64,000 nt of DNA from Bacillus sp. ISL-34. GTDB lineage: Bacteria; Bacillota; Bacilli; Bacillales; DSM-1321. The translations under genes and the position numbers were made by a program. This document shows, one piece after another, positions 1 through 58,782 of the stretch (the stretch's first letter is position 1; each line of letters begins with the position of its first letter). Where the stretch lies: assembly GCF_018613325.1 (NCBI RefSeq), contig NZ_JAGGQJ010000004.1, forward strand, positions 248,001 to 312,000. The letters are read 5' to 3'. The notes beneath the pieces were generated by a model. It saw nothing but the letters and a program-made list of their open reading frames with translations, made no database searches and was not told where the DNA came from.

Positions 1-51
1 TTTGAAAATGCGCCAGCTGCCAAGCGCAAGAGAAAACCAAAAAAGAGATAA
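1..51 (+). CDS. rnr: Ribonuclease R, C-terminal end only
   Basis: Only the last 16 codons are in the window. They encode a Lys/Arg-rich tail (ending KRKRKPKKR) and stop at TAA 49-51. RNase R, a 3'-5' exoribonuclease, usually has such a basic tail and lies directly upstream of smpB in Bacillus. RNase R also works with SmpB-tmRNA in degrading non-stop mRNAs, so the neighbourhood supports the call. The identification rests on the tail composition and synteny, because the catalytic part lies outside the window. Confidence 0.75.
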   Translation, partial: FENAPAAKRKRKPKKR

Positions 52-118
52 AGATTGAGGCGGGAGGATGATCAGTTCATCCTCTTGCCGCGATTGGATG
101 TAAAAAGGGGAGAGTTAG

Positions 119-586
119 ATGCCAAAAGGCTCAGGTAAACAACTTGCACAAAATAAAAAGGCTTATCATGATTTCTTTATTGAACAAACTTTTGAAGCGG
201 GAATCGTTTTAAAAGGGACCGAAATCAAAGCAATCCGTGCCGCTCGAGTGAATTTGAAGGATGCCTTTGCTAAAATAGAAAATGGTGAAATTTATCTTCA
301 TAATATGCATGTCAGCCCGTATGAGCAGGGAAACCAGTTTAACCATGACCCGTTGCGGACACGGAAGCTTCTTTTGCATAAGAAAGAAATCAGTAAACTG
401 ATCGGTGAAACAAAGGAAACAGGTTACACCATCGTCCCATTGAAAATGTATTTAAAGAATGGCTTTGCCAAAGTTTTAATCGGACTTGGAAAAGGGAAGA
501 AACAATATGACAAGCGCGAAGACCTGAAGAAGAAGGAAGCGAAACGTGATATCGAACGGGCTTTCCGTGATCGGCAGAAGATGTAG
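119..586 (+). CDS. smpB: SsrA-binding protein SmpB
   Basis: A 155-residue protein, the normal family length. It binds tmRNA and delivers it to stalled ribosomes for trans-translation in the cytoplasm. Visible family features are the N-terminal [20 protein letters not shown] stretch, the GTEIKAIR segment, and the basic C-terminal tail ([17 protein letters not shown]) that occupies the empty mRNA channel. AGGGGAGAG lies just upstream of ATG 119. Between rnr and smpB (about 60-91) an inverted repeat of AGGATGA with TCATCCT could fold in the intercistronic RNA. The next locus is ssrA itself, the RNA partner. Confidence 0.97.
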
Positions 587-605
587 AACTGCCAAGACCT
601 TACAA

Positions 606-633
606 TTGATTTTTTGAACCAATCTGTTATAAT
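606..633 (+). promoter_or_regulatory. Sigma-A promoter of ssrA
   Basis: TTGATT at 606-611 and a perfect TATAAT at 628-633 are separated by 16 bp. The predicted start lies about 70 nt before the mature tmRNA 5' end, so the precursor would need 5' processing, as expected for a tRNA-like domain (RNase P). Confidence 0.75.
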
Positions 634-709
634 TAATCCTGTACCGATGACAATTGAATATCAGCCAACATGCTGACTATTCTTCTCTCGTACGCTCCAT
701 TTCTATCAT

Positions 710-1071
710 GGGGACGTTACGGATTCGACAGGGATAGTTCGAGCTTAAGTTGCGAGTCGAGGGGATCGGCCTCGTTAAAACGTCAACGCCTATAACTGGC
801 AAACAAAACAACAACCTAGCTTTCGCTGCTTAATAACAGTCGATAGCTGTTCCTCCCTCCATGGCCCACGTGGTAGGGTAAGGGACTCACTCTAAGTGGG
901 ATACGCCGGAATCCACCGTCTGAGGATGAAGGAAGAGACCAATCAGACTAGCTGCTCTGCCGCCTGTCGATAGGCTAATGAGTTCGCGAAATGCGAATAT
1001 ATCGACTACACTCGTAGAAGCTTAAGTGCCGTTATGTCTGGACGTGGGTTCGACTCCCACCGTCTCCACCA
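710..1071 (+). ncRNA. ssrA: tmRNA (transfer-messenger RNA)
   Basis: This RNA rescues stalled ribosomes and tags the incomplete peptide for proteolysis. The 5' end GGGGACG (710-716) pairs with CGTCTCC (1061-1067) to form the acceptor stem, followed by ACCA (1068-1071) encoded in the DNA. The T-arm sequence GTGGGTTCGACTCCCAC precedes it. The tag reading frame runs from GGC at 798 to tandem TAA stops at 831-836 and encodes GKQNNNLAFAA; with the Ala from the charged tmRNA the tag is A-GKQNNNLAFAA. The hydrophobic LAFAA end fits recognition by ClpXP-type proteases. Length is about 362 nt, normal for Bacillus. Confidence 0.97.
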
Positions 1072-1092
1072 ATACATATATTGGTGGTTTTT
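1066..1092 (+). terminator. Intrinsic terminator overlapping the tmRNA 3' end
   Basis: CCACCAATA (1066-1074) pairs with TATTGGTGG (1079-1087), followed by a T-run from 1088. The 5' arm of the hairpin contains the last bases of mature tmRNA including its CCA end, so the precursor 3' end is held in the terminator until it is trimmed. Confidence 0.85.
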
Positions 1093-1120
1093 TATTTGTT
1101 TTTTAGTTATATTTTGTCGA

Positions 1121-1240
1121 AAAATCGATAAATCGTATAATTCGCAGATAAATCAGGAGTTTTCGTTGATATATCTCCATTTTCGAAGATATATTCCCGA
1201 TTTCGCAGATAAATTGTACAATCGCTATCAATTAAAGGAA
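1121..1240. repeat. Degenerate 20-bp periodic repeat, about six units
   Basis: Consecutive 20-bp blocks start at 1121, 1141, 1161, 1181, 1201 and 1221. The middle four share TTCG followed by GATA and AT at constant positions (for example TTTCGAAGATATATTCCCGA and TTTCGCAGATAAATTGTACA). The outer two are weaker. The array fills the gap between the tmRNA terminator and the NERD gene. It lacks spacers and is not CRISPR. Any ORF through it gives periodic low-information peptide and is not credible. Confidence 0.7.
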
Positions 1241-1294
1241 TATTCCCTATTGCTGTAGAATCCTTTGGGAGAAACCAAGATTGGAGCGATAAAG

Positions 1295-2263
1295 TTGATT
1301 GTAAAAAAGCGAAAAGTTCCTCTTGCCATCCGCAAATTACGTGCATTAGCGTGCAGACTTCCTCCGAATCACCCTAAAGTTCCCTTAATCATGAACGATC
1401 TCAAAAAAAGGGAAGCGGGCTATAAAGGGGAATGTTCGATTGATTTTCCATTAAGCTTTCTTGAACCGAAAAGCTATTTCATCTTCCACGATTTAAGGCT
1501 GCAGGATCAATCCCGATTTTTTCAGCTGGATACCTTATTAGTCACCAAGAAATATGCGCTTATCATTGAAGTGAAGAACATGGCAGGGTCGCTTTATTTT
1601 GATCCTCATTTCTATCAGCTCATTCGAACGATAGAAGGAAAAGAAAGAGCATTTCCAGATCCAATCATACAAGTCAGCCGCCAGGAATCACAGTTGACCA
1701 ATTGGTTCTTTAAAAACGGTTTTCCCTCACTGCCCATCCTTTCATTGATTGTCATCAGTAATCCCCAAACAATCATCCGTACAGCTCCTGAAAACCATGA
1801 ACTCCACTATAAAGTTATCCATCGCGATACACTTCCTGCTAAAATTAAGCAAATGGAGCATTCCATAACAGAATCCAGTTTTAGTGAAAAACATTTGAAG
1901 AAAGCAGTCCGTGTAATCAATAAACAACATATCGATGCGGACTTTTCCATCTTGGAACGATACAATCTTACCGATAAGGACCTAATAAAAGGAGTGATAT
2001 GTGAGAATTGCAAGGGGAATCAGTTATTTAGAAGGCATGGCACATGGCTTTGCAATCAATGCCAACAATCCAGTAAAACAGCACATATCCATGCTTTACG
2101 AGATTATTTTTATCTAATTGGCTCGACTATAACGAATCGGCAGTTGAGGGATTTTTTAAGCATTTCCTCTTCATCCAGTGCAACACGGATTTTGCAATCA
2201 TTGAATCTGACAAGCACCGGTGCGAATAAGGGAAGGGTGTACAGCCTGAATTTTGATGAGTGA
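1295..2263 (+). CDS. NERD domain-containing protein
   Basis: A 322-residue protein with a nuclease-related (NERD) domain in the first half. The segment FFQLDTLLVTKKYALIIEVKN (positions given from the TTG 1295 start, about residues 75-95) carries the D...E-V-K pattern of the endonuclease-like fold. The C-terminal third has a possible zinc ribbon: CENCKGN and, 15-20 residues on, CNQC. I chose TTG 1295 because GGAG lies 8 nt before it; an in-frame TTG at 1265 has no ribosome binding site. NERD proteins are presumed nucleases, but their substrates are mostly unknown. There is no operon partner, and no sign of a defence island nearby. Confidence 0.75.
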   Translation: MIVKKRKVPLAIRKLRALACRLPPNHPKVPLIMNDLKKREAGYKGECSIDFPLSFLEPKSYFIFHDLRLQDQSRFFQLDTLLVTKKYALIIEVKNMAGSLYFDPHFYQLIRTIEGKERAFPDPIIQVSRQESQLTNWFFKNGFPSLPILSLIVISNPQTIIRTAPENHELHYKVIHRDTLPAKIKQMEHSITESSFSEKHLKKAVRVINKQHIDADFSILERYNLTDKDLIKGVICENCKGNQLFRRHGTWLCNQCQQSSKTAHIHALRDYFYLIGSTITNRQLRDFLSISSSSSATRILQSLNLTSTGANKGRVYSLNFDE

Positions 2264-2345
2264 TATCTGGGTGATCAGGCCCTCATCAGACTAATTGTTT
2301 TAAACTATTCTTTAATTTTGCATTATTAAATTTCGTAATACATGA

Positions 2346-2388
2346 TAAAAAAAGACTCAAAAGAAGCATGAACTTCTCTTAAGTCTTT
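2346..2388 (-). terminator. Intrinsic terminator of the fdhF operon
   Basis: On the minus strand AAGACTT...AGAAG pairs with CTTCT...GAGTCTT and runs into TTTTTTT (complement of 2347-2353). It lies just after the stop of the DUF1641 gene. Confidence 0.85.
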
Positions 2389-2397
2389 GTCCCGATT

Positions 2398-2874
2398 CTA
2401 CTCTTTCAATTCCTTGCCCATTCCCTTTAGGAAGTGAACGCCAAAGCCGATCGCCCGGTTTATGTCTGGATCATTCAATGTTTTCATTAAATCCAAAACT
2501 CCGATCTTCTTATCGGCCTGAAGGAATTTGTTTCCTTCATCGATTCCAGCAAGTGCACTGTTAAGCAGTTTCGTGGATTGTGCGGCATCGGCGTTCATCA
2601 AGGCTCCTGTTGCCCCCATAAGGGTATTGATCAGGTTTGTGACGGGTTGCCTTGTGATTTGTTGAAGAGCGATTTTGGCAATTTGTTCTTTTCCTTGAAG
2701 CATGGAGGTCGCGGCTTCGAATACTCCCGAGTCATTCAGTTCATTGACGATTTTAAACATATTGTTCAATGCATCTTCATTATCGGTGATCAACGTTTTC
2801 AGTTCTTCCAGTTTTTGCAGCTTTATTTCTTCCTCAGTAATGGGATTATGGATTTCCGTAATAGGAGCTGCCAT
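2398..2874 (-). CDS. DUF1641 protein of the formate dehydrogenase operon (YjgD-like)
   Basis: A 158-residue DUF1641 family protein, resembling the product of B. subtilis yjgD, which follows the FDH-like gene yjgC. The role of DUF1641 is not established. The protein is soluble and helical, with a conserved-looking C-terminal part (GVLDLMKTLNDPDINRAIGF and GVHFLKGMGKEL). The start is ATG 2874 because AAGGAGGG sits 8-9 nt before it; an upstream in-frame GTG would overlap that site. It begins 18 bp after the fdhF stop, so the two are co-transcribed. By inference it is an accessory or electron-transfer partner of the dehydrogenase. Confidence 0.85.
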   Translation of the reverse strand: MAAPITEIHNPITEEEIKLQKLEELKTLITDNEDALNNMFKIVNELNDSGVFEAATSMLQGKEQIAKIALQQITRQPVTNLINTLMGATGALMNADAAQSTKLLNSALAGIDEGNKFLQADKKIGVLDLMKTLNDPDINRAIGFGVHFLKGMGKELKE

Positions 2875-2892
2875 GATCTTCACCCTCCTTGT

Positions 2893-5832
2893 TTATTTAT
2901 CCGTTAAGTGAACATAGCCTGGACGGGCCCACTTACGTTCAACCTCGACACCATTTTGAGGATGACGTTTTTTGTTCCGTGGATTGGTATCCGGTAATGG
3001 GATGTCTCCGCTTGCGCTTAATACTTCCATGCGGACCATCGTCTGTTTGTAAGCAGGCGTGCTTGTGCGCCGATCATATATAGGACCAGTCAGGAAGTTA
3101 ATGGCAGAGTCTTTATCGACGGAGTTCATCGGTAAAAATAGTTCATTATTTTTTACACGGTCCGTGATCAGGGCTTTTAATTTAACGGCCCCGAATGGAG
3201 ACACTAAGCGAACGAGTCCGCCATCACTGACTTTGCGTTCTTGGGCAAGTTCAGGTGAAACCTCAACGAAAATATCAGGTACTTTCGATTGGATTCCATT
3301 GGATTTGTTCGTCATATTGCCTTCATGGAAATGCTCCAGCATGCGTCCATTATTGACATGAAGGTCATATTCTTCCGGGAATTTATGAGGTTCCACCCAG
3401 TCAGCCAGTGCAAAGCGCGCTTTCTTATCAGGGAAATTGAAGCCATCCACATAAAGAAGCGGCGTGCTTGATCCATCAAGGCTTCCCCAAAGGAAGCTGT
3501 TCCATCCTTCCAGCACCTCGTAATTCGCTTGGCTGAATATCGGTGAAAGGCTTGCCATTTCATCATAGATTTCACCAGGATGTTCGTAGTTCCAATTCGC
3601 ACCTAAGCGGTTGGCGATCTCCTGGGTGATCTCCCAGTCCGCCTTAGAATCTCCCATAGTGGGAAGGGCTTTATATAAACGCTGTACACGGCGCTCTGTA
3701 TTGGTGAACGTTCCGTCTTTTTCAAGGGATGGAGCTCCGGGTAATACCACGTCGGCATATTGGGCTGTCCTTGAAAGGAAAATATCCTGGACAACAAAGA
3801 AATCCAATCCGGATAGCACTTTATCAACATGGTTTGCATCCGCATCAACAAGTGCCATATCTTCACCTACAAGATACATCGCCTTCATGTCGCCTTTTTC
3901 TATCGCTTTAAGCATTTCAATATTATTCAAGCCTGGTTTGCCATCGATTTTCACTCCATAAGCTTTTTCGAATTTAGCACGTGCTACATCATCGGTAACA
4001 TGCTGATATCCTGGAAGCCATGTTGGAAGGGTGCCCATATCGCAAGCGCCCTGTACATTGTTATGGCCGCGAAGCGGATAAGCTCCCGCTCCCGGGCGAC
4101 GGTAGTTACCTGTAGCTAATAGTAGGTTGGAAATTGCAGCCGAAGTATCGGAAGCACCAGTGTTTTGTGTAACGCCCATTCCCCAGAGGATGCAAGTTCC
4201 GTCAGCATCGCGAATGGCTTCAGCTATTTGGATCAATGTTTCTCTTGAAATGCCTGTGTGTGTTTCTGCATATCCCAGGGTATATTTTTCAAGTACTTCT
4301 TTATAATCGTCGAAGAAGTTAACATTCTCATTGATGAATTCTTGATCATGCCAGCCTTGATCGATCATATATTTTGTAACCGCCATCAACCAAACTTGAT
4401 CCGTTCCTTGTTTTGGACTTATATGGATGTCGGAACGCTCGGCCATTTCGTTTTTGCGGATGTCAGCTACGATCAGTTTTTGTCCGTGAAGCTTGTGAGC
4501 CCGTTTAACGCGTGTCGCCAGTACGGGATGGCCTTCTGCCGGGTTAGCACCAACGATGATGACAAGACCTGCTGCGGCGATATCTTTGATCGTACCAGCA
4601 TCTCCGCCCATGCCGACTGTACGGAACAGTCCGTCTGTTGCTGGCGATTGACAGTAACGGGAGCAATTGTCGACGTTATTCGTTTCGAATATTTGCCGTG
4701 CCAGCTTTTGAATTACATAGTTTTCTTCATTCGTGATCTTGGAAGAGGAAATGAAGCCAACTGAATTTCCGCCGTATTGCTGTTTGATCGACCCCAGTCT
4801 GGATGCAACCAAATCAAGTGCTTCATCCCAGCTTGATTCAACGAATCTTCCATTTTTCCGAATCAGGGGCTTTGTCAACCGTTTTTCCGAGTTTACGAAG
4901 TCCCAACCGAATTTCCCTTTGACACAAGTGGATATCGCATTGACGGGTGCTTCATGAGTAGGTTGGACTTTAAGGATTTTACGGCCTTTTGTCCAGACTT
5001 CGAATGAACATCCTACCCCACAGAACGTACAGACCGTTTTTGTCTTCTTCGTCCGTGTATCACGCATTGCCGCTTCAATTTCCGAAATGGCAAAAATCCC
5101 GCTGTATCCAGGTTCCACTTCCTTGACAAGGTCAATCATTGGTTCAAGCATATCGTTTTTCAAACCTGACATGAAACCAGCCTCACCGAGCATCGATTTT
5201 TCCATTAGTGCATTACATGGACAAATTGTTACACACTGTCCGCAGCCTACACAAGATGAGTTATTGATTTCCGTTCCTTCATCCCAGATTACCCGAGGGC
5301 GTTCCGCTTCCCAGTCGATGGACAGCGTCTCGTTGACCTGAAGGTTTTGGCAGACTTCGACACATTGACCGCATGCGATGCATTGATTGGCATCATAGCG
5401 GTAAAATGGATGGGACATATCGACGGCACCCAATTCCACTTTCGGCGTGTAAGGATATTTTTGGTGTTCAATTTCCATTAATTCCGCTGTGTTATGCAGT
5501 TTGCAATTTCCGTTATTATTATCACATACAGTACAGTATAAAGAATGGTTTTCAAGGATCCGGTCCATGGCTTCGGTTTGGGCTTCTTTTGCCTTGCTTG
5601 AGTCCAAGGCTATATCCATGCCGCTCACTGCTTTTGTCGAACATGATCGGATGAGTTTCCCATTAACTTCGACGATGCATGTGTCGCATGTTTGGATCGG
5701 ATCCACTTCAGGAACATAACAAATCTGTGGATGAGCTATCTCATTTTGGTTGATGACCTCCAGAATTGTCGCTCCTTCATTAGCGGTATAACCCTTCCCA
5801 TTGATTTTGATGGTGATGTTTGAATCGCTCAT
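2893..5832 (-). CDS. fdhF: Formate dehydrogenase alpha subunit, molybdopterin-dependent (YjgC-like)
   Basis: A 979-residue cytoplasmic molybdopterin oxidoreductase predicted to oxidise formate to CO2. Domain order: N-terminal [2Fe-2S] ferredoxin domain (residues 1-75, with CDTC), a His/Cys cluster domain (CTVC...C near 110-125), two [4Fe-4S] ferredoxin motifs (CIACGQC and CVGCGQC, about 155-210), then the molybdopterin domain beginning with CTFCGVGC near residue 270. The metal ligand is a cysteine in RYCQSPATDG (about residue 400), so this is a Cys enzyme rather than a selenocysteine one. A C-terminal molydop-binding domain completes it. ATG 5832 follows AAGGGGG. No NAD-binding beta subunit lies nearby. 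Maturation would need FdhD, encoded divergently at 6585. A terminator in the leader suggests attenuation. Confidence 0.93.
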   Translation of the reverse strand: MSDSNITIKINGKGYTANEGATILEVINQNEIAHPQICYVPEVDPIQTCDTCIVEVNGKLIRSCSTKAVSGMDIALDSSKAKEAQTEAMDRILENHSLYCTVCDNNNGNCKLHNTAELMEIEHQKYPYTPKVELGAVDMSHPFYRYDANQCIACGQCVEVCQNLQVNETLSIDWEAERPRVIWDEGTEINNSSCVGCGQCVTICPCNALMEKSMLGEAGFMSGLKNDMLEPMIDLVKEVEPGYSGIFAISEIEAAMRDTRTKKTKTVCTFCGVGCSFEVWTKGRKILKVQPTHEAPVNAISTCVKGKFGWDFVNSEKRLTKPLIRKNGRFVESSWDEALDLVASRLGSIKQQYGGNSVGFISSSKITNEENYVIQKLARQIFETNNVDNCSRYCQSPATDGLFRTVGMGGDAGTIKDIAAAGLVIIVGANPAEGHPVLATRVKRAHKLHGQKLIVADIRKNEMAERSDIHISPKQGTDQVWLMAVTKYMIDQGWHDQEFINENVNFFDDYKEVLEKYTLGYAETHTGISRETLIQIAEAIRDADGTCILWGMGVTQNTGASDTSAAISNLLLATGNYRRPGAGAYPLRGHNNVQGACDMGTLPTWLPGYQHVTDDVARAKFEKAYGVKIDGKPGLNNIEMLKAIEKGDMKAMYLVGEDMALVDADANHVDKVLSGLDFFVVQDIFLSRTAQYADVVLPGAPSLEKDGTFTNTERRVQRLYKALPTMGDSKADWEITQEIANRLGANWNYEHPGEIYDEMASLSPIFSQANYEVLEGWNSFLWGSLDGSSTPLLYVDGFNFPDKKARFALADWVEPHKFPEEYDLHVNNGRMLEHFHEGNMTNKSNGIQSKVPDIFVEVSPELAQERKVSDGGLVRLVSPFGAVKLKALITDRVKNNELFLPMNSVDKDSAINFLTGPIYDRRTSTPAYKQTMVRMEVLSASGDIPLPDTNPRNKKRHPQNGVEVERKWARPGYVHLTDK

Positions 5833-5862
5833 TATATTTCCCCCTTTTATAGCCAAAAACAC

Positions 5863-5921
5863 GAAAAAAAACCACCATGATCACACCTCCGGCTCTGAAC
5901 GGAAATGTAGGTCATGGTGGA
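5863..5921 (-). terminator. Intrinsic terminator inside the fdhF 5' leader (attenuator candidate)
   Basis: On the minus strand CCACCATGA pairs with TCATGGTGG. Inside it ATTTCCG pairs with CGGAGGT through two G-U pairs, and the hairpin is followed at once by eight T. It stands downstream of the likely promoter (6033-6061) and 30 nt upstream of the fdhF start. No minus-strand gene ends before it, so it can only act on the fdhF transcript or, much less likely, on plus-strand transcription. The ligand or factor controlling it is unknown. Confidence 0.75.
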
Positions 5922-6032
5922 ATAGTTTAATAGCAAAGCTTGCCAATATACCAATCCATACCATAATGGATAATTTTTAAAAAAGATAGGACACAACAGT
6001 ACACTATTATGCTCCCAACTTTCCTCCTTGAT

Positions 6033-6061
6033 ATTATACCTTTAATTTTAACAAGAAACAA
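6033..6061 (-). promoter_or_regulatory. Putative promoter of the fdhF operon
   Basis: On the minus strand TTGTTT (6061-6056) and TATAAT (6038-6033) have 17 bp between them. This gives an unusually long leader of about 190 nt before fdhF, which contains the terminator at 5863-5921. Confidence 0.6.
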
Positions 6062-6166
6062 TCCTGGAAAGAGGGTATCATTACCAAATTTCTTTCGTTT
6101 TTCCTCGCGTTGATTTATGATAAGAAAATTGAGAACTTAATTTTCTTGAATTGGAGTGACGTAACG

Positions 6167-6529
6167 GTGTCAAAAGTTATCCATGAATTCAATGATATGA
6201 TTCGAAAGCTGCGCAAGGAACTATTCGGTAAAGGACCAGAACGGATACACACAGTTTTCGTGGAAAATATGGCCGTTTCTACGTTATATGGGAATTTGAC
6301 TCCTACGGAAATGTTTATATCAAGATCGGAGGAAGGAAGGGATATGGTCCATTCAGCACGAACCAAAATGGTTCAGGATGTGTATTCGGAGAGTCCTCCT
6401 GATGGAATGGAAGAACTGGTTGGAGCTAAACTTGTCCATTTGTTTTCAGACATCAAAATCAAAGAGAACATAGCGATTTCCGTATTCGTATTCGATAAGA
6501 ATATAGCGGACAAACTCAACGGGCATTGA
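6167..6529 (+). CDS. DUF2294 domain-containing protein
   Basis: A 120-residue protein matching the DUF2294 pattern: a short helix, LFGKGPERIHTVF near residues 20-32, a central LTPTEMFI element, and a C-terminal DIKIKENIAISVFVF strand. I placed the start at GTG 6167, with GGAG 10 nt upstream; the in-frame TTG at 6110 has no binding site, and the shorter form fits the usual family length. Biochemical function is unknown. It lies directly upstream of fdhD (55 bp) and divergent from fdhF, so a link to formate dehydrogenase or molybdenum metabolism is plausible but inferred from position alone. Confidence 0.8.
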   Translation: MSKVIHEFNDMIRKLRKELFGKGPERIHTVFVENMAVSTLYGNLTPTEMFISRSEEGRDMVHSARTKMVQDVYSESPPDGMEELVGAKLVHLFSDIKIKENIAISVFVFDKNIADKLNGH

Positions 6530-6584
6530 CCATGTTCCTTACATATTGGTCAATTGGCTCCTGGATAGTAAAAGGAGTGGGAAC

Positions 6585-7382
6585 ATGAAAGCGATTGAAA
6601 AGAAGAGGGACATCATCAGGATAGCCAAAGGCAACATCGAGCGGACGGAAGATACGATCGTAACGGAGCATCCCGTTACTGTCAAAATAAATGGCCAGGA
6701 ATTCGTCACGATGGTTTGTACACCGGAGCACATCGAGGATATGGTGATTGGTTATTTGGCCTCGGAAGGCATCATCAAAAAATATGATGAGATAAAAGAA
6801 ATCTGGGTCCAGGAAAAAGAAGGCTTTGTTCATGTGAAGACAGATAAAGTGAATCCTTACTTCCAGGACTTTCAAAATAAGCGGTATATTACATCTTGCT
6901 GCGGAATGAGCAGACAAGGTTTCGTCTTTGTGAATGATGCATTGACTGCCAAGAAAATGGATCATGTTTCGGTGAAACTGACTCCTGATGACTGCTTTCG
7001 CTTGATGAAGGATTTACAAAATTCTGCCGTCACCTTCCAGAACACAGGCGGAGTCCACAATGCCGCCTTATGTGACGTCGATGGCCTCGTATTAAGCAGG
7101 ATGGACATCGGTCGGCATAATGCCTTGGACAAAATATACGGTCATTGCTTGAAAAATGGTATTTCGATAGAAGGGAAAGCTATCGTGTTCAGCGGCCGGA
7201 TTTCATCGGAAATTCTCTTGAAGGTGGCAAAAATCGGGTGTGAACTGATACTCTCGAAATCAGCTCCAACCGAATTGGCTTTGGAGTTGGCTGAAGGATT
7301 GGGAATCACAACGGTCGGTTTCATTCGTAATGATTCACTGAATATCTATACATGCCCTGAAAGAATTCTATTGAAAGACTGA
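6585..7382 (+). CDS. fdhD: Formate dehydrogenase accessory sulfurtransferase FdhD
   Basis: A 265-residue FdhD. It passes sulfur from a cysteine desulfurase to the molybdenum cofactor of formate dehydrogenase, which is required for activity. The catalytic cysteine region is TSCCGMSRQG near residues 100-110, the Bacillus form of the CGxCG loop of E. coli. Also visible are the conserved segments TGGVHNAALC and DIGRHNALDKIYG (cofactor site) and FSGRISSEILLK. ATG 6585 follows AAAGGAG with good spacing; an in-frame ATG at 6546 lacks one. The gene serves the fdhF enzyme encoded divergently. Confidence 0.96.
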   Translation: MKAIEKKRDIIRIAKGNIERTEDTIVTEHPVTVKINGQEFVTMVCTPEHIEDMVIGYLASEGIIKKYDEIKEIWVQEKEGFVHVKTDKVNPYFQDFQNKRYITSCCGMSRQGFVFVNDALTAKKMDHVSVKLTPDDCFRLMKDLQNSAVTFQNTGGVHNAALCDVDGLVLSRMDIGRHNALDKIYGHCLKNGISIEGKAIVFSGRISSEILLKVAKIGCELILSKSAPTELALELAEGLGITTVGFIRNDSLNIYTCPERILLKD

Positions 7383-7414
7383 GCATCCCTCGCTTAAAAG
7401 GTGCTTATGGGAAG

Positions 7415-7443
7415 GTCCTTGCCAACATGGCTTGGGCTTTTTT
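7415..7443 (+). terminator. Intrinsic terminator after fdhD
   Basis: GTCC-TT-GCCA / TGGC-TT-GGGC hairpin (7415-7437) followed by TTTTTT. It is moderate in strength because of the TT/TT internal loop. Confidence 0.6.
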
Positions 7444-7523
7444 GTACTTGGATATATCCAACAGGCCTTTTGTGGTACAGTTTGGATAAAACATTCAAGG
7501 AAAAGCGTATCGGGGGAAGGGTT

Positions 7524-8396
7524 ATGAACGAACGGGATTGGCATATTTTAAAGGTGTTGCATGAGCATAAGAACATTACTAAAACGGCGCAAAGTCTATA
7601 TATATCGCAACCTTCTTTAACGAAACGAATTCAACAAATAGAGAAGGAATTCAACCTAAAGATTGTGGAGCGGGGAACAAGGGGAGTGCAGTTCACCCCT
7701 CAAGGAGAATATTTGGCCAACTGTGCAGATGAGATGCTGATCAGGCTCCGGCAGATAAAAGAGACAGCGTTCAATATGGGTCAGGAGATCAGTGGGACAT
7801 TACGGCTGGGTGTTTCCAACTATATCACGCTCCATAAATTGCCTGGCCTGTTGAGATTATTTCGTGAGCGATATCCTAAAGTGGATTTCCATGTGACCAC
7901 TGGTTGGAGTAAAGAAGTGCTGAACCTCATTTACAAGGAAGAAGTGCATGTGGGGATCGTTCGGGGGGACTATCAATGGTCAGGATCAAGGCACCATCTT
8001 TTTGAGGAAACGATTTGTATTGCTTCCAAGGAAAAAATCGAAGTCAGGAACCTGCCTTTCCTGCCGAGGATCGATTATGGGACAGATGCTCTTTTGAAAA
8101 CCATGATCGATAATTGGTGGAGAGACAATTTTTCAGGACCGCCTTTGGTTGGGATGGAAGTGGACAAAGGTGATACATGTAAAGAAATGGTAAGGAATGG
8201 CCTTGGCTATGGCATCCTCCCCAGTGTTTTATTGGAGAAGGACCAAAATCTCTGTCAAATGGACCTTAAGGATAAGCAAGGTAATCCCCTTATCAGGAAT
8301 ACGTGGATGTTATATCATGAAAAGTCGCTGGAATTAAAACTGGTCAAAGCGTTTGTCGAATTTGTCAAAGACGTCGATTTCATGAGTGATATTTAA
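7524..8396 (+). CDS. LysR-family transcriptional regulator
   Basis: A 290-residue regulator with an N-terminal winged helix-turn-helix (NITKTAQSLYISQPSLTKRIQQIE, residues 17-40 region) and a C-terminal periplasmic-binding-like effector domain from about residue 90. ATG 7524 follows GGGGGAAGG; upstream in-frame starts run through the preceding terminator. It is followed by an AEC-type carrier and then tricarboxylate uptake genes, all on the same strand, so control of organic-acid transport is a fair guess. The effector cannot be read from sequence. Confidence 0.9.
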   Translation: MNERDWHILKVLHEHKNITKTAQSLYISQPSLTKRIQQIEKEFNLKIVERGTRGVQFTPQGEYLANCADEMLIRLRQIKETAFNMGQEISGTLRLGVSNYITLHKLPGLLRLFRERYPKVDFHVTTGWSKEVLNLIYKEEVHVGIVRGDYQWSGSRHHLFEETICIASKEKIEVRNLPFLPRIDYGTDALLKTMIDNWWRDNFSGPPLVGMEVDKGDTCKEMVRNGLGYGILPSVLLEKDQNLCQMDLKDKQGNPLIRNTWMLYHEKSLELKLVKAFVEFVKDVDFMSDI

Positions 8397-8400
8397 CTGG

Positions 8401-8428
8401 AAGCGCAGAAATCTCTGTGCTTTTTTTG
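8401..8428 (+). terminator. Intrinsic terminator after the LysR gene
   Basis: AGCGCAGA (8402-8409) pairs with TCTGTGCT (8414-8421) with a short loop, then a run of T to 8427. This separates the regulator from the AEC carrier gene. Confidence 0.8.
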
Positions 8429-8550
8429 TCATTCCTTTTTTGAATGGATAACGATAATTTATTGGTATTTTAACTATGGTTATCACGGCATTATGATAGA
8501 TGGGAGATGTTAATCATCAGGAATTGCCTAAGGAATGGAGAGGAAGTCAA

Positions 8551-9477
8551 GTGAGTGTCCTGTTTCTGATCGTATTGAATGTCATTGTGCCGGTCTTTTT
8601 CCTAATAGGGGCTGGGGCCATCCTGCATCGTAAATTCAAGTTGGATATGAATACGCTGTCTAAATTGAATCACTTCCTGCTCATGCCTGCCATTAGCTTT
8701 GTCAATATATATCAGAGTAAAATGGGCGGGGGAATGATTGTCCAGATATTCAGCTTCCTTGCTCTTCAAGCAGTAAGCCTCATCATCGTGAGTACAGTGA
8801 TTGCTAAACTTGCCAGGTTTGATCAAAGTCTTTCTGCCACGTTTAAAAATAGTGTAGTCCTGAATAACTCAGCCAATTTCGGGTTACCCGTCAGTCAGAT
8901 GGTTTTTAATGGAAATCCTCTTGGCCTGTCGATCCAAGTCATCGTGATCATTTTTCAAAACCTGTTGACCTATACCTATGGATTGATGAATTCCGTTTCC
9001 GTCCATTCAAAAAGTACGAAGGGCGCCATTCGCGAGTTCTTGAAGAATCCAGTCATTTATGCTTTATTACTCGGTTTTCTATTACATTCTGCTTCTTTCG
9101 ACATTCCGCTGTTCTTATGGACCCCGATTGAAAATATCGCGAGTGCCTTCATAGCCATTGCCTTGATTACCTTGGGTGCACAGAGTGCCTATTTGAAAAT
9201 GACGCAATTTCCGCTTCCGCTTATCCTTAGCTTGATTGGCCGGTTAATACTCTCGCCATCCATCGCCTTCCTTATCATCCTCCTGCTGGGCCTGGAAGGA
9301 ACTGTCGCTCAGGGATTATTTATCGCAAGTTCATTTCCCACATCGAGAAACAGCGCATTATTCGCTTTGGAATATGACAACCATCCGGAGTATGCGGCAC
9401 AGGCAGTCTTGATGTCGACTTTATTCAGCAGTATAACGGTAACGATGGTCGTTTATCTATCAAAAATATTATTCTAG
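8551..9477 (+). CDS. AEC-family transporter (auxin efflux/malate permease type)
   Basis: A 308-residue membrane protein with about ten hydrophobic segments in two five-helix halves, typical of the AEC family that carries malate, malonate or other small organic acids. Family features are the N-terminal VIVPVFFLIGAGAILHRKF and the central NNSANFGLPVSQMVFNG motif in the first repeat. I start at GTG 8551, with AGAGG upstream; the in-frame ATG at 8500 would add 17 polar residues uncharacteristic of the family. Substrate is not determinable, but the neighbouring LysR and Tct genes suggest a di- or tricarboxylate. Confidence 0.85.
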   Translation: MSVLFLIVLNVIVPVFFLIGAGAILHRKFKLDMNTLSKLNHFLLMPAISFVNIYQSKMGGGMIVQIFSFLALQAVSLIIVSTVIAKLARFDQSLSATFKNSVVLNNSANFGLPVSQMVFNGNPLGLSIQVIVIIFQNLLTYTYGLMNSVSVHSKSTKGAIREFLKNPVIYALLLGFLLHSASFDIPLFLWTPIENIASAFIAIALITLGAQSAYLKMTQFPLPLILSLIGRLILSPSIAFLIILLLGLEGTVAQGLFIASSFPTSRNSALFALEYDNHPEYAAQAVLMSTLFSSITVTMVVYLSKILF

Positions 9478-9608
9478 CAGGGCTCCTCTTTGTGGGCGGG
9501 CCTTTTCCCCATGTCTCCCGATAAAACTTTATGAACATTATAGAGGTTATGGAATTTATGCATCTTAGGTTAATAATCAAAGAAAACGAAGATATTTTTG
9601 TAGAATTA

Positions 9609-9622
9609 AGAAAACGCTTTCA
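9609..9622 (+). promoter_or_regulatory. Catabolite-responsive element (cre) upstream of tctC
   Basis: AGAAAACGCTTTCA reads on the reverse strand as TGAAAGCGTTTTCT, one mismatch from the CcpA consensus TGWNANCGNTNWCA. It sits 14 bp before tctC ATG, overlapping the 5' leader, a position suited to carbon catabolite repression of tricarboxylate uptake. Confidence 0.7.
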
Positions 9623-9636
9623 AAAGGGGGATTATC

Positions 9637-10659
9637 ATGTTTTCTCGTAAAAAGATTTCAGCGGTCATATTGGCGGGTTCGTTAGCTTTAAGTTTAGGTG
9701 CATGCAGCAGTTCGGGTACATCAGGAGAAAAGAAAGAAAGTACAGGTTATCCGAAAAAAGCCATAACGGTCGTTGCTCCATCGGGCGCAGGCGGTGGATG
9801 GGATTTAACGGCCCGTTCATTTACAAAGGTCTTGAGTGAGACAAAACTGGTGAACCAGCCATTGACCGTCGAAAACAAACCCGGTGGCGGGGGCGCAGTC
9901 TTCATGGCGGATTATGCAACACAGCAAGTGGATAATAATGACATGCTTTTCGTGAATTCACCGCCTGTCATCATCAATAACCTTAAAAAAGAAGGCAACA
10001 GTCCTTATGGATATAAAAATACGACTCCTTTGGCGCAGCTGACAAAGGATTATGGGGCGATAGTGGTAAAGGCAGATTCTGAATTCAAGGATTTGAAATC
10101 AGTGCTGGAAGCGGTGAAGAAAGATCCGCGTAAGTTGACCTTTGCAGGAGGATCGGCTCCGGGATCCATGGATCATTTGATTTCCATTCTTCCAGCCTAT
10201 GAATATGGCTTGAATCCAACTGAACTTAAATACGTTTCGTACGACGGTGGCGGGGAAGCGATTACGGCATTGCTTGGCGGAAATGCGGATGTGATCGGAA
10301 CGGATGCATCCAGTGTCAGGGAATTTTTAAAAGCAGGAAAGATTAGAGTGTTGGCCGTAACCTCGACTGAACGTTTAGGTGGAGATTTAAAAGACATACC
10401 GACGGCAAAGGAACAGGGTGTTGATGCTGAATTCACGATTTGGAGAGGTGTTTTTGGACCTCAGAATATGTCTGGTGAAGCGAAAACCTTTTGGGACGGA
10501 ACCATTGAGAAGCTAGTTGAAACTTCTGAATGGAAAAAGGAAGTGGAAGTTCAAGGATGGGAACAAGAATATAAAAATAGTGAAGAATTCAGCAAGTTTT
10601 TAGAAGAACAGGAGAAACAGGTTCAGCAATTATTGGAAGCTTTAGGCATGGAAAAATAA
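9637..10659 (+). CDS. tctC: Tripartite tricarboxylate transporter substrate-binding lipoprotein
   Basis: A 340-residue extracytoplasmic solute receptor of the TTT/BUG family. A lipoprotein signal with lipobox LGAC (Cys about residue 23) anchors it to the outer membrane face. The mature part starts YPKKAITVVAPSGAGGGWD, the usual first ligand-binding loop, and continues with the conserved VENKPGGGGAV segment. ATG 9637 follows AAAAGGGGG. It heads tctC-tctB-tctA and is preceded by a cre site. The ligand is probably citrate or a related acid, as judged from the CitA/DcuS-like kinase downstream. Confidence 0.93.
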   Translation: MFSRKKISAVILAGSLALSLGACSSSGTSGEKKESTGYPKKAITVVAPSGAGGGWDLTARSFTKVLSETKLVNQPLTVENKPGGGGAVFMADYATQQVDNNDMLFVNSPPVIINNLKKEGNSPYGYKNTTPLAQLTKDYGAIVVKADSEFKDLKSVLEAVKKDPRKLTFAGGSAPGSMDHLISILPAYEYGLNPTELKYVSYDGGGEAITALLGGNADVIGTDASSVREFLKAGKIRVLAVTSTERLGGDLKDIPTAKEQGVDAEFTIWRGVFGPQNMSGEAKTFWDGTIEKLVETSEWKKEVEVQGWEQEYKNSEEFSKFLEEQEKQVQQLLEALGMEK

Positions 10660-10663
10660 TCGA

Positions 10664-10690
10664 GAAGAAGGGGGTGCTTTCACCTTCTTC
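10664..10690 (+). terminator. Intercistronic hairpin between tctC and tctB
   Basis: GAAGAA...GGTG pairs with CACCTTCTTC, with a small G bulge, and is followed by TTATTTT. It probably stabilises the tctC mRNA 3' end or partially terminates, giving more binding protein than membrane subunits. Strand and position exclude its use by any other gene. Confidence 0.6.
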
Positions 10691-10716
10691 TTATTTTCTG
10701 AAATGGAGGGATTGTG

Positions 10717-11172
10717 ATGGATGTTAAATTTGATCGCTTTGCATCTGTAGCCTTTCTGGCAGTCGGGGTGCTGTTCATGATAGGAAGCAGGAAGCTGGCC
10801 AGTTCTTCATATGGAAGTTCGGTAGGACCGGACATTTTCCCTTTTGTATTGGGGCTCGTTCTTGCTGTTTTAAGTATTCGCCTGTTCTATGAGGCATTTC
10901 GGGCCAAGGTGCAGGAATCGGGTAAGGAAAAGCTGGAATATAAACCTTTTATCATCATTCTGCTCTCCACCTTGATTTATATTTTGACATTGGAAACGAT
11001 AGGATATGTCATTACGACCTTTCTCTTTTTGTTTGTTTGCTTTCAAACGATGGAACGAAATAAGTGGGTGACATCGCTCATCATTTCCGCAGGATTTTCC
11101 GGAATCATCTATTATTTGTTCGTGAATGTTTTAAAGGGAACACTGCCGGGTTGGCCAATCTGGTTTTCATAA
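10717..11172 (+). CDS. tctB: Tripartite tricarboxylate transporter small membrane subunit TctB
   Basis: A 151-residue protein with four predicted membrane segments, the size and topology of TctB. It carries the family's early SSYGSSVGPDIFPFVLG segment (about residues 28-45). It forms the permease with TctA. ATG 10717 has TGGAGGG 6 nt upstream; the in-frame GTG three bases earlier is too close. The next gene starts 18 bp after the stop. Confidence 0.9.
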   Translation: MDVKFDRFASVAFLAVGVLFMIGSRKLASSSYGSSVGPDIFPFVLGLVLAVLSIRLFYEAFRAKVQESGKEKLEYKPFIIILLSTLIYILTLETIGYVITTFLFLFVCFQTMERNKWVTSLIISAGFSGIIYYLFVNVLKGTLPGWPIWFS

Positions 11173-11190
11173 AAGGAAGGGGGATGTGAA

Positions 11191-12717
11191 GTGGGCACTT
11201 TTGATTATTTAATGCATGGTTTTGAAACGGCACTAACTTGGTATAACATACTTTTTGCATTTGTCGGGGTATTGATCGGTACGGCTGTCGGCGTTTTGCC
11301 GGGGATCGGGCCGATGAGCGGTGTTGCTCTTTTAATTCCGGTAACCGCTTCGATTACAGGGGGACTTCCGCCAGAGCAAGCGGCAACAAGCGCCATCATT
11401 TTACTTGCAGGTGTTTATTATGGAGCTATGTATGGAGGGTCGACAACATCTATCCTATTGAATACACCTGGTGAATCCTCTTCTGTCGTCACCACACTGG
11501 ATGGCTACCAAATGGCGAAGAAGGGAAGAGCCGGGAGTGCTTTATCCATTTCGGCAATCGGTTCCTTCGTCGGAGGGATTGTCACCCTTATCGCCATGAT
11601 TGCCTTGGCTCAGCCATTATCGACGATTGCCATTAAATTCGGTCCGGCTGAGTATTTTTCGCTCATGCTTCTAGGGTTGGCGGCAGTCAGCGGCCTTGCG
11701 GGAAAATCCGTAACCAAGGCACTGATCATGACTGTTTGCGGTTTGTTGATCGGGACGATAGGCATTGATAATGTATCCGGGATCGCCCGTTTTTCATTCG
11801 ACATTCCTTGGCTGTATCAAGGGGTCGAATTCCTGACGATCGCAGTTGGTCTATTCGCCCTTGGAGAAGTATTCAAGACAATCTTGGAAAAAGAAGAGGA
11901 TGATGGGGAAATTGCAAAGATCAATAATTTGCTTCCTTCCAAAGAAGAATTCAAGGAATCCGCGGGTCCCATTGCGAGGGGGTCGCTCTTAGGATTCTTT
12001 GTAGGGATCCTGCCGGGTGCAGGGGCCACTCTGGCTTCTTTCTTCTCATACCTTATGGAAAAACGGATTTCAAAAAAACCCGGGAGATTTGGTACAGGGG
12101 CGATCGCTGGAGTGGCTGGACCTGAAACGGCCAATAACGCGGCGTCTGGCGGAGCGATGATTCCATTATTGACGCTGGGAATTCCGGGTTCCGGTACAAC
12201 GGCGATTTTAATGGGTGCGCTCATGATGTACAATGTTCAGCCAGGTCCATTATTATTCGAGGACCATCCTCAGGTGGCTTGGGGACTTATCGCCAGTATG
12301 TTCATCGGAAATCTGATGCTGCTGATCCTTAATCTCCCGCTCGTTAAGGTTTTTGCGAAAATCATTGAAACGCCAAAGAAATATTTGATTCCGATCATCA
12401 TCGCGATTTCCATTTTTGGAGTTTATGCGGTACAAGTATCGACATATGATTTATTGCTATTATTAGGATGCGGGGTCTTGGGATATTTCTTAAGTAAAAA
12501 TGATTATCCGATTGCCCCATTGGTATTAGGACTGGTTTTAGGACCGATGATAGAAAATAATATGCGCAGGGCCCTGACGATATCCGATGGGGATTACAGT
12601 TTGTTTTTCACTCGGCCGCTTTCCCTGACATTCCTGATCATAACGGCATTATGGCTGCTCATTCCGGTTTTACTTAAGAAGAGAGGGAAGGATGTTGTCA
12701 TCAATATTGAAGGTTAA
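11191..12717 (+). CDS. tctA: Tripartite tricarboxylate transporter large permease TctA
   Basis: A 508-residue integral membrane protein with about twelve hydrophobic segments, the channel-forming subunit. It shows the two family signatures: the N-terminal GTAVGVLPGIGPMSGVALL and the second-repeat GILPGAGATLASFFSY with PETANNAASGGAMIPLLTLG. Start is GTG 11191, with AAGGGGG 7 nt upstream. Translation is probably coupled with tctB. The operon ends at the strong terminator at 12740. Confidence 0.96.
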   Translation: MGTFDYLMHGFETALTWYNILFAFVGVLIGTAVGVLPGIGPMSGVALLIPVTASITGGLPPEQAATSAIILLAGVYYGAMYGGSTTSILLNTPGESSSVVTTLDGYQMAKKGRAGSALSISAIGSFVGGIVTLIAMIALAQPLSTIAIKFGPAEYFSLMLLGLAAVSGLAGKSVTKALIMTVCGLLIGTIGIDNVSGIARFSFDIPWLYQGVEFLTIAVGLFALGEVFKTILEKEEDDGEIAKINNLLPSKEEFKESAGPIARGSLLGFFVGILPGAGATLASFFSYLMEKRISKKPGRFGTGAIAGVAGPETANNAASGGAMIPLLTLGIPGSGTTAILMGALMMYNVQPGPLLFEDHPQVAWGLIASMFIGNLMLLILNLPLVKVFAKIIETPKKYLIPIIIAISIFGVYAVQVSTYDLLLLLGCGVLGYFLSKNDYPIAPLVLGLVLGPMIENNMRRALTISDGDYSLFFTRPLSLTFLIITALWLLIPVLLKKRGKDVVINIEG

Positions 12718-36042: not shown

Positions 36043-36055
36043 ATGGAAATAATAA

Positions 36056-36146
36056 GTTTCTAGGGTTCCTCGGTTGAATTTTACCGGAATGGTCCAAGAG
36101 AAACGCGCAGGAATCTGCGTACACGGAGGGAAAAAAGCCCGGGAGG
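36056..36146 (+). ncRNA. Guanidine-I (ykkC) riboswitch
   Basis: The leader shows the ykkC core in order: CTAGGGTTCC, then GGTCCAAGAGAAACGC, the GCGC/GCGT-type stem, ACACGGAGGG and AAAAGCCCGGGAGG. This aptamer binds free guanidinium. Its 3' segment AGCCCGGGAGG is also the 5' arm of the following terminator, so guanidine binding should prevent termination and switch the exporter on. Confidence 0.93.
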
Positions 36147-36175
36147 TTATGATTTATGACCTTTCGGGCTTTTTC
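36136..36175 (+). terminator. Riboswitch-controlled terminator
   Basis: AGCCCG...AGGT pairs with ACCT...CGGGCT, then TTTTT. The 5' arm is shared with the guanidine-I aptamer, giving an ON switch. Confidence 0.88.
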
Positions 36176-40554: not shown

Positions 40555-40576
40555 TATAATAAACCCGTTTATCCTT

Positions 40577-40762
40577 CCGAAGATAGCTCCCCACGCTTTT
40601 TGAAAAAACGTGACAGTGGTGTTCCTGTTAGGTAACACCGCCAGCAAGAATATACATGGAATATACCCTAACTTCGGCAACTTATCCTTTCAAACGGAGT
40701 CTTTAATTTTCCAGAATCTCGTCCGTTTTACTTTTATAAGCTGCAGCCTCTAACTCATCGGT
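40577..40762 (-). ncRNA. Lysine riboswitch (L box)
   Basis: Read on the minus strand, the leader contains the L-box conserved blocks in order: GAGTTAGAGGCTGCAG, AAAAGTA, a hairpin, AAAGGATAAGTTGCCGAAG, TTGCTGGC, CACTGTCACG and GGGGAGCTATCTTCGG closing stem P1. Lysine binding should favour the terminator and shut off the permease gene. Confidence 0.9.
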
Positions 40763-57034: not shown

Positions 57035-57140
57035 TTCTTATCAAGAGTGGCGGAGGGACTGGCCCGACGAAGCCCGGCAACCGGTATAAATTTTATATAC
57101 GGTGCTAATTCCAGCAGAGTGTTGGCTCTGGTAGATGAGG
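57035..57140 (+). ncRNA. SAM-I riboswitch (S box) of metY
   Basis: Shows TTATCAAGAGTGGCGGAGGGA, split here as TTATCAAGAG and GGCGGAGGGA, then CTGGCCCGACGAAGCCCGG, CAACC and GGTGCTAATTCCAGCAGA, closing with GATGAGG that pairs with TTATC for P1. This is the complete S-box core. SAM binding should favour the following terminator and lower metY expression. Confidence 0.95.
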
Positions 57141-57151
57141 TGTGGTCTTGA

Positions 57152-58668: not shown

Positions 58669-58782
58669 GCTCTTATCAAGAGAGGTGGAGGGATGTGCCC
58701 GATGAAACCCGGCAACCGACAAGGAGATTTCCTTGGAAAGGTGCCAATTCACACAAAGTTTAATCACTTTGGAAGATGAGAG
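58669..58782 (+). ncRNA. SAM-I riboswitch (S box) of metNPQ
   Basis: CTCTTATCAAGAGAGGTGGAGGGATGTGCCCGATGAAACCCGGCAACC is the canonical S-box 5' half (here cited by position: 58670-58716), followed by AAGGTGCCAATTC and GATGAGAG, which pairs with CTCTTATC for P1. SAM should repress the methionine transporter. Confidence 0.96.

Follow-up and report, generated by a model that had tools for sequence, protein, structure and literature searches.

The window analyzed here is a 64,000-nucleotide stretch of the genome of Bacillus sp. ISL-34. On its minus strand, fdhF (forC; 2893..5832) encodes the 979-residue catalytic subunit of a molybdopterin formate dehydrogenase, and next to it lies the gene for a DUF1641 protein (2398..2883, minus; PF07849), a forE-like partner subunit; both were assigned by Pfam, and the forC/forE names follow the accessible text of PMC8808070. 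The divergent plus-strand genes, also assigned by Pfam, encode a DUF2294/MpsC protein (PF10057; 6167..6529, with an inferred GTG start), which we propose to be an RNA-binding antiterminator, and, 3′ of it, FdhD (FdhD/NarQ family; 6546..7382). The DUF2294 protein scored 108.4 bits against PF10057, whose curated cut-off is 23, and was the only PF10057 match found in the genome of the window. The divergent DUF2294 and fdhF genes are separated by a minus-strand leader of about 190 nt.

The first-pass annotation had described this leader as attenuator-like, ending in a strong hairpin with a run of eight T shortly before fdhF, and both the coordinates and the folding energies bear this out. The intrinsic terminator (5864..5920, minus) consists of a stem from 5920 to 5872 (CCACCATGA...TCATGGTGG) and eight T (5871-5864), and it ends about 30 nt ahead of the fdhF ATG (5832). 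The terminator region folds with -27 kcal/mol (z -5.3) and the whole leader with -58.6 kcal/mol (z -5.5); none of 200 shuffles equaled either value. Because the upstream gene, DUF2294, is divergent, no minus-strand gene ends at this terminator, as had been claimed. The promoter proposed at 6033..6061 (minus; TTGTTT-17-TATAAT), identified by reading the sequence, comprises a TATAAT at 6038-6033 and a weak -35 box, TTGTTT, at 6061-6056, with a predicted start near 6026. The pair was absent from the list of a consensus promoter scan, promoter-like sites in window positions 1-12000 occurred at chance level (23 versus 22.9 expected), and the one thing that speaks for this pair is the conservation of its -10 box in relatives, judged by eye.

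Upstream of the terminator the leader contains two conserved hairpins that had been overlooked, HP1 (5975..6019, minus) and HP2 (5919..5957, minus), which were defined by covariation and lie within a covariance model match at 5913-6020 (models R1 and R2). HP2 carries the best conserved sequence of the leader and is the proposed antiterminator; it has a CC in common with the 5′ arm of the terminator. A DNA similarity search of 61 genomes gave full-length leader matches within the genus of the window and only a short core in more distant genomes. As similarity beyond the near relatives was limited to the HP2 core, covariance models were needed. In all 30 leader loci tested, among them that of the window itself (L001), the downstream gene was fdhF.

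Fourteen distinct leaders, without near-copies and the deleted leader L028, were aligned with MAFFT. Over the 30 pairs of the two hairpins 87.7% of the cells were paired, and this value dropped to between 29% and 59% in slid controls. Changes on both sides of a pair were found in 30 cells compared to 11.8 in shuffles, with none of 500 shuffles reaching 30, and they affected 9 of the 30 pairs, a number reached by 7 of 500 shuffles. RNAalifold, run unaided, predicted the same helices. In the alignment of 72 sequences (A3), which was fitted to the structure model and hence leans towards the structure, 19 of the 30 pairs changed on both sides, including 15 of the 16 pairs of HP1 (0 of 500 shuffles), and one HP2 pair was G-U in all 72 sequences. 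The first-pass annotation had named beforehand one observation that would speak against it, a stem not conserved in homologous leaders; the stem turned out to be conserved.

The two hairpins share one design, UGG-8 nt-UA-loop-UG-8 nt-CUA, which occurs in two copies followed by the strong terminator. In A3, HP1 is represented at the marked columns in 65 of the 72 rows, and 56 of these 65 show, on each of the four strands, a spacing of 8 nt between the UGG/CUA at the base and the UA/UG near the tip. UGG/CUA was found in HP1 of 50 and in HP2 of 54 of the 65 rows, and UA/UG in 58 and 48, respectively, with a further 14 rows having CA/UG in HP2. The length of the HP1 loop ranges from 3 to 47 nt. 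HP1 and HP2 are thus one module present twice. Since the stems are fixed, the loops are free, and the two copies are equal, the hairpins may be the sites of a dimeric RNA-binding protein.

The relationship between the hairpins and the terminator was analyzed in 177 pooled elements (72 from A3 and 21 and 84 from other searches, in overlapping sets), which gave 137 distinct elements after identical ones and those with less than 70 nt downstream had been left out. A terminator stem started within the last 14 nt of the element in 136 of the 137; the single exception was the second R2 match of locus L335, which is misplaced and was rejected. The terminator was stronger than HP2 in 136 of 136 cases, with median energies of -27.2 and -11.0 kcal/mol. 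It overlapped HP2 by at least one base in 117 of 126 measurable elements (median 3) and showed no overlap in 9, and giving up the bases taken by HP2 weakens the terminator by a median of 7.9 kcal/mol. Among 400 random windows of named loci, used as a control, 99 were terminator-like and 35 matched the strength of the weakest of the 136 terminators. Judged from sequence and predicted energy, the element thus contains a hairpin that is mutually exclusive with an intrinsic terminator. As the terminator is by far the stronger of the two in these predictions, termination would be the default and HP2 would need help to form. Together with the conservation and covariation of the leader, these data strongly support the earlier claim that the terminator ahead of fdhF is conditional.

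Covariance model R1 matched in 69 of 397 genomes of the order (18 of 135 genera) and R2 in 35 of 398 genomes of the class (18 of 146 genera). In a sample of the phylum R2 matched in 4 of 398 genomes, all four inside the class, and no element was found outside Bacilli in the samples searched. Owing to the stricter filters applied in large searches, the genome counts are lower bounds; the fdhF leader of G476 was missed by R2 yet is visible by eye. At least one class-level match, that of R2 at L197 (G611), was taken as false since it lies inside a reading frame. Where an element also gave a weak second match on its other strand, the near-palindromic sequence of the hairpins is the probable cause.

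For 66 of the 82 R1 matches, most near-copies having been left out, the next recognized gene was fdhF in 56 cases, DUF2294 in 7, Gly_transporter in 2, and Mrp in 1. A DUF2294 gene was present in 61 of these 66 loci; the other five are fdhF loci of the Gottfriedia group (g24), four of them with only 1.5-2 kb of upstream sequence. Further contexts, with gene families confirmed by Pfam, are a formate/nitrite transporter, where the element lies behind fdhD-moaA (L196/L318), Gly_transporter at L178 and L187, and PsiE followed by Mrp at L182. In 80 named DUF2294 loci, 84 elements preceded fdhF (65), the formate/nitrite transporter FNT (10), DUF2294 (7), Mrp (1), and Gly_transporter (1); these 84 include 10 extra elements that score 22-35 bits, of which one (L335) is misplaced. 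The element is the leader of DUF2294 itself in 7 of the 84 and in 7 of the 66 of the overlapping set, with 6 common to both, and this arrangement is found in Gottfriedia and near relatives. At L183 (G597:C1, 646659-646758) an element precedes a frame of 179 amino acids without a Pfam match, followed by an EamA transporter; no DUF2294 was found within the 5 kb examined, and the frame is a possible further member of the regulon.

PF10057 was present in all 69 genomes with an element compared to 289 of the 397 genomes overall (hypergeometric 2e-11, for species that are related and hence not independent); the counts take in all PF10057 subfamilies, and 220 of the 397 genomes had PF10057 and no element of the type described above (type a) found. 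Of the genomes with matches at the class level, 21 of 23 had PF10057, the exceptions being G611 with its false match and G656. When loci were picked by the DUF2294 protein only, 74 of the best 80 of 254 loci carried an element of at least 37 bits, whose sequence was identical to an R2 input sequence in 33 cases and not in 41. An element of 37 bits was not found at the remaining six of these 80 loci (L312, L338, L343, L349, L353, and L368). At the 30 best-scoring PF10057 loci, which belong to the canonical subfamily, R1 detected no type-a element and gave three weak matches with E values of 0.076 or worse. In the divergent layout the element is part of the transcript of the target and lies outside the DUF2294 transcript. 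Judged from gene order, this is as expected of a regulator and its target, and an element before DUF2294 is as expected of autoregulation.

Losses of the element follow the same pattern. An fdhF orthologue (82-100% identity) was found in 29 of 36 genomes of the genus of the window, and 28 of these 29 have an element of at least 70 bits and an adjacent DUF2294 gene. In the remaining one, G025, fdhF (91%), the promoter, and an intact terminator are kept, HP1 and half of HP2 are deleted, and no DUF2294 gene lies next to fdhF; the sole PF10057 match of this genome is canonical (72% identical to L235, 29% to the window protein). Both the fdhF orthologue and any element above 30 bits are missing from the other seven genomes. 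G656 has kept fdhF and has no DUF2294, and its hairpins, which score 33.5 bits, look degraded by eye; six relatives in the same genus keep both DUF2294 and the hairpins. The link between DUF2294 and the RNA comes from sequence comparison, which leaves some room for another protein, or a ribosome on a leader peptide, to work the switch. We regard this as extremely unlikely, as the hairpins are lost together with DUF2294 and no conserved leader reading frame was seen by eye in the aligned leaders.

An AlphaFold model of the window protein, based on an alignment of 53 sequences, had a pLDDT of 92.3 and the order helix, two strands, helices, two strands, helix. Neither Foldseek nor a second fold comparison of this model gave a confident relative or a known RNA-binding fold, and the fold thus lends no support to RNA binding. 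A pairing of HP2 mismatch types with DUF2294 types inside type a was dropped because G563 has the A-C type before Gly_transporter yet a single PF10057 match, of the usual fdh type.

A paralogous fdhF is accompanied by a second DUF2294 subfamily, whose identity to the window protein is about 41-47%. The leader of this paralogue (type b) differs in sequence but likewise forms two hairpins, here with GUAA/UUGC-like tips, next to a terminator. It was found in six genomes of the genus of the window and in G623, which belongs to another family and whose sole PF10057 match is of the type-b subfamily. With a similarity of 86% among the seven sequences, the type-b leader showed slight covariation. Throughout the seven type-b loci seen (L370-L376), the RNA type follows the DUF2294 type; L374 and L375 have two type-b DUF2294 genes around an Mrp-fdhD-moaA-fdhF cluster. 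In a tree, whose labels derive partly from how the loci were picked, type-a proteins grouped together (87/60) and the canonical proteins apart (100/100). The mean net charge up to the GxG motif was +3.9 for type a (n = 39), +2.8 for type b (n = 5), and +0.2 for canonical proteins (n = 29).

These observations bear on whether the leader might itself sense a metabolite (formate, bicarbonate, or a compound related to one-carbon metabolism or the molybdenum cofactor), with DUF2294 being just a frequent member of the pathway. The RNA is highly conserved, and its regulon, which takes in fdhF as well as formate channel, Mrp, and Gly_transporter genes, partly far from any DUF2294, does look like that of a riboswitch. 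We nevertheless consider a riboswitch unlikely. In the divergent layout DUF2294 is outside the transcript, yet where it is lost the hairpins are lost or decayed too and fdhF is retained; the RNA type tracks the DUF2294 type in the seven type-b loci; two copies of a simple stem module, with a variable loop in HP1, look like protein sites; and there was no match to a riboswitch of Rfam. The small-molecule sensor suggested in the first-pass annotation is therefore less well supported than a DUF2294-dependent antiterminator, and its proposal of formate or a one-carbon metabolite would fit the regulon as the ultimate signal.

Upstream of canonical DUF2294 genes lies a second conserved leader (L120-L149, L382-L411), composed of ACCGAGAGAU, a long hairpin CUUUAG/GAAAAAG, and an AUCGGUAUAUUU...AUACCGAUUUUUU terminator. 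It occurs in 47 of 199 genomes, shows two-sided changes in 25 of 32 predicted pairs (10 sequences), and had no Rfam match in 10 loci. In 27 of the 30 best loci it is located directly upstream of DUF2294, and 22 of these 27 have an Sbt_1-like transporter next or within reach, an assignment made by Pfam for L126. The second leader is a candidate for a new riboswitch or attenuator of bicarbonate transport. Three loci (L406, L410, and L411) have the second leader and no DUF2294 downstream, so it may have targets in trans; at L406 it precedes a frame of 291 amino acids, and at L410 it lies 748 nt before a frame that by eye resembles isocitrate dehydrogenase. A carbonic-anhydrase-like reading of a frame at L145 was dropped, as it had no Pfam match.

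The conserved and covarying dual hairpin, its overlap with the terminator, the regulon, and the coupling to DUF2294 are features of the sequences themselves. From them we infer DUF2294 binding, its positive direction, the dimer, and the effector, and we consider it probable that the fdhF leader works as an antiterminator of transcription that depends on a protein, the neighboring DUF2294. Against this count the 220 genomes with PF10057 and no type-a element found, the six DUF2294 loci without one of 37 bits, the nine elements whose terminator does not overlap HP2, and G025 with its intact fdhF behind an intact terminator. By default, RNA polymerase would halt at the strong terminator. Active DUF2294, probably as a dimer or in two copies, would grip both hairpins of the same design and keep HP2 closed, which would take away the bases that close the terminator stem. 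The terminator would then be prevented from forming and fdhF-forE would be transcribed. Genes for the formate channel, Mrp, and Gly_transporter would be under the same control, as would DUF2294 itself in Gottfriedia and near relatives. Formate or CO2/bicarbonate is the probable effector: the genes of the regulon suggest formate, the position of the canonical branch beside Sbt_1 suggests bicarbonate/CO2, and either could be the ligand of the family. More tentatively, with rather less than even odds, all of PF10057 may be RNA-binding regulators whose signals are small anions with one carbon, namely formate and bicarbonate/CO2; a first branch would act on the dual-hairpin antiterminators of formate genes and the other on the second leader before DUF2294-Sbt_1 operons.

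Bacillus subtilis offers a testable form of the antiterminator model in yrhF and the leader of yrhE (forC2), which show the same arrangement, yrhF - leader - yrhE. In its close relatives B. spizizenii and B. inaquosorum (L314 and L315) the element scored 86.8 and 85.9 bits, and DUF2294 and fdhF are in place. We take yrhF to be the DUF2294 gene, based on gene order and a single control genome with a PF10057 match; the accessible text of PMC8216469 calls YrhF unknown. A 139-nt RNA between yrhF and yrhE, enriched with Hfq, is listed as ‘New sRNA or yrhE leader region’ in the accessible part of PMC3574147, which reports it just as a possible sRNA or leader and gives no mechanism there. This discrete RNA would be in line with the terminated leader acting mainly in trans as a small RNA; we judge that highly unlikely, since the element is tied to the directly downstream gene, before several different genes, and, in 136 of 137 cases, runs into a terminator.

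After induction of the small RNA RoxS for 15 min, the yrhF mRNA fell to 0.42 and forC2/forE2 to 0.69, as far as PMC10433868 is accessible. The fall of forC2 alongside yrhF is what a positive regulator would give, and it could also be a direct effect of RoxS. It bears as well on the opposite sense of regulation, in which HP2 would form without DUF2294 and DUF2294 would favor termination as a repressor. Both states would follow from the same overlap of HP2 and terminator, but the predicted energies, with a far stronger terminator in all 136 comparisons, imply that HP2 is the partner in need of a helper, and forC2 falls rather than rises when RoxS lowers yrhF in those data; we therefore hold a repressor to be quite improbable. 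The yrhEFG genes are up at low pH and with benzoate (accessible text of PMC2788229). ForCE2 is described as an active formate:menaquinone oxidoreductase, and its authors state that forCE2 was apparently not expressed under formate induction (accessible text of PMC8808070), which counts against formate as the inducer.

A comparison of the leader with the 4227 families of Rfam gave no match at gathering score, in accord with the earlier remark that it resembles no riboswitch class that could be named. The best sub-threshold match, to the Listeria sRNA rliG (5867-6106, minus; 21.4 bits versus a threshold of 55, E 0.015), shares letters of the terminator and is probably due to chance. There was likewise no Rfam match at the elements of L073, L088, L091, and eight further loci, with one Bacillaceae-1 match elsewhere in L178. 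Five matches elsewhere in the window (tmRNA, lysine, two SAM, and guanidine-I) show that the search works; the riboswitches among them lie at 36049-36147 (guanidine-I), 40576-40760 (lysine), and 57035-57141 and 58670-58782 (SAM). As far as the open literature is accessible, with most subscription papers and bioRxiv outside its scope, we found no account of the mechanism of the element, and the accessible parts of PMC2965389 and PMC11109978 do not mention it. No open literature treating DUF2294 together with formate dehydrogenase was found.

The fdhF element resembles the RNAs of the ANTAR antiterminators EutV, NasR, and AmiR in having two small hairpins before an intrinsic terminator, as tandem sites for a protein dimer; ANTAR dual-hairpin RNA is recognized at hexanucleotide loops with A1 and G4 (accessible text of PMC3369931). 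In the fdhF element, in contrast, it is stem pairs that are fixed, and hexaloops with A1 and G4 show no conservation: among 66 rows, HP1 had hexaloops in 30 by either of two loop definitions, 2 of them with A1 and G4, and HP2 had hexaloops in 8, none with A1 and G4. The putative partner, the DUF2294 protein of the window, matches PF10057 only and has no ANTAR domain. In the BglG/LicT/SacY systems a protein-stabilized RAT hairpin overlaps the 5′ arm of the terminator, just as is proposed for HP2, but RAT is a single hairpin of other sequence whereas the fdhF element has two, and a RAT-like start pattern was found in none of 72 elements. By the RNA features tested, the fdhF element is neither an ANTAR nor a RAT element, and it is not in Rfam.

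The likeness of the window DUF2294 to MpsC of Staphylococcus aureus mpsABC lies in the Pfam name, PF10057. In S. aureus, mpsC, too, lies behind a weak terminator, and its deletion caused no growth phenotype (accessible text of PMC6689103), the latter a point against the model. The canonical DUF2294 subfamily forms the separate branch described above (100/100), in many cases next to Sbt_1 transporters and preceded by another leader RNA, and the antiterminator model provides a mechanistic hypothesis for MpsC, whose other branch adjoins bicarbonate transporters. Our analysis connects an RNA element that Rfam does not list with a protein family that is widespread in Bacilli and has had no assigned role. 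The model, if true, explains the switching of a widely shared formate oxidation and transport regulon; the wider reading of PF10057, if true, would give the domain a function and define a new class of CO2/formate sensing through RNA. Protein-dependent antitermination, as in the ANTAR and BglG systems, is a known kind of control, to which this system would add a new RNA, a new protein family, and a new regulon.
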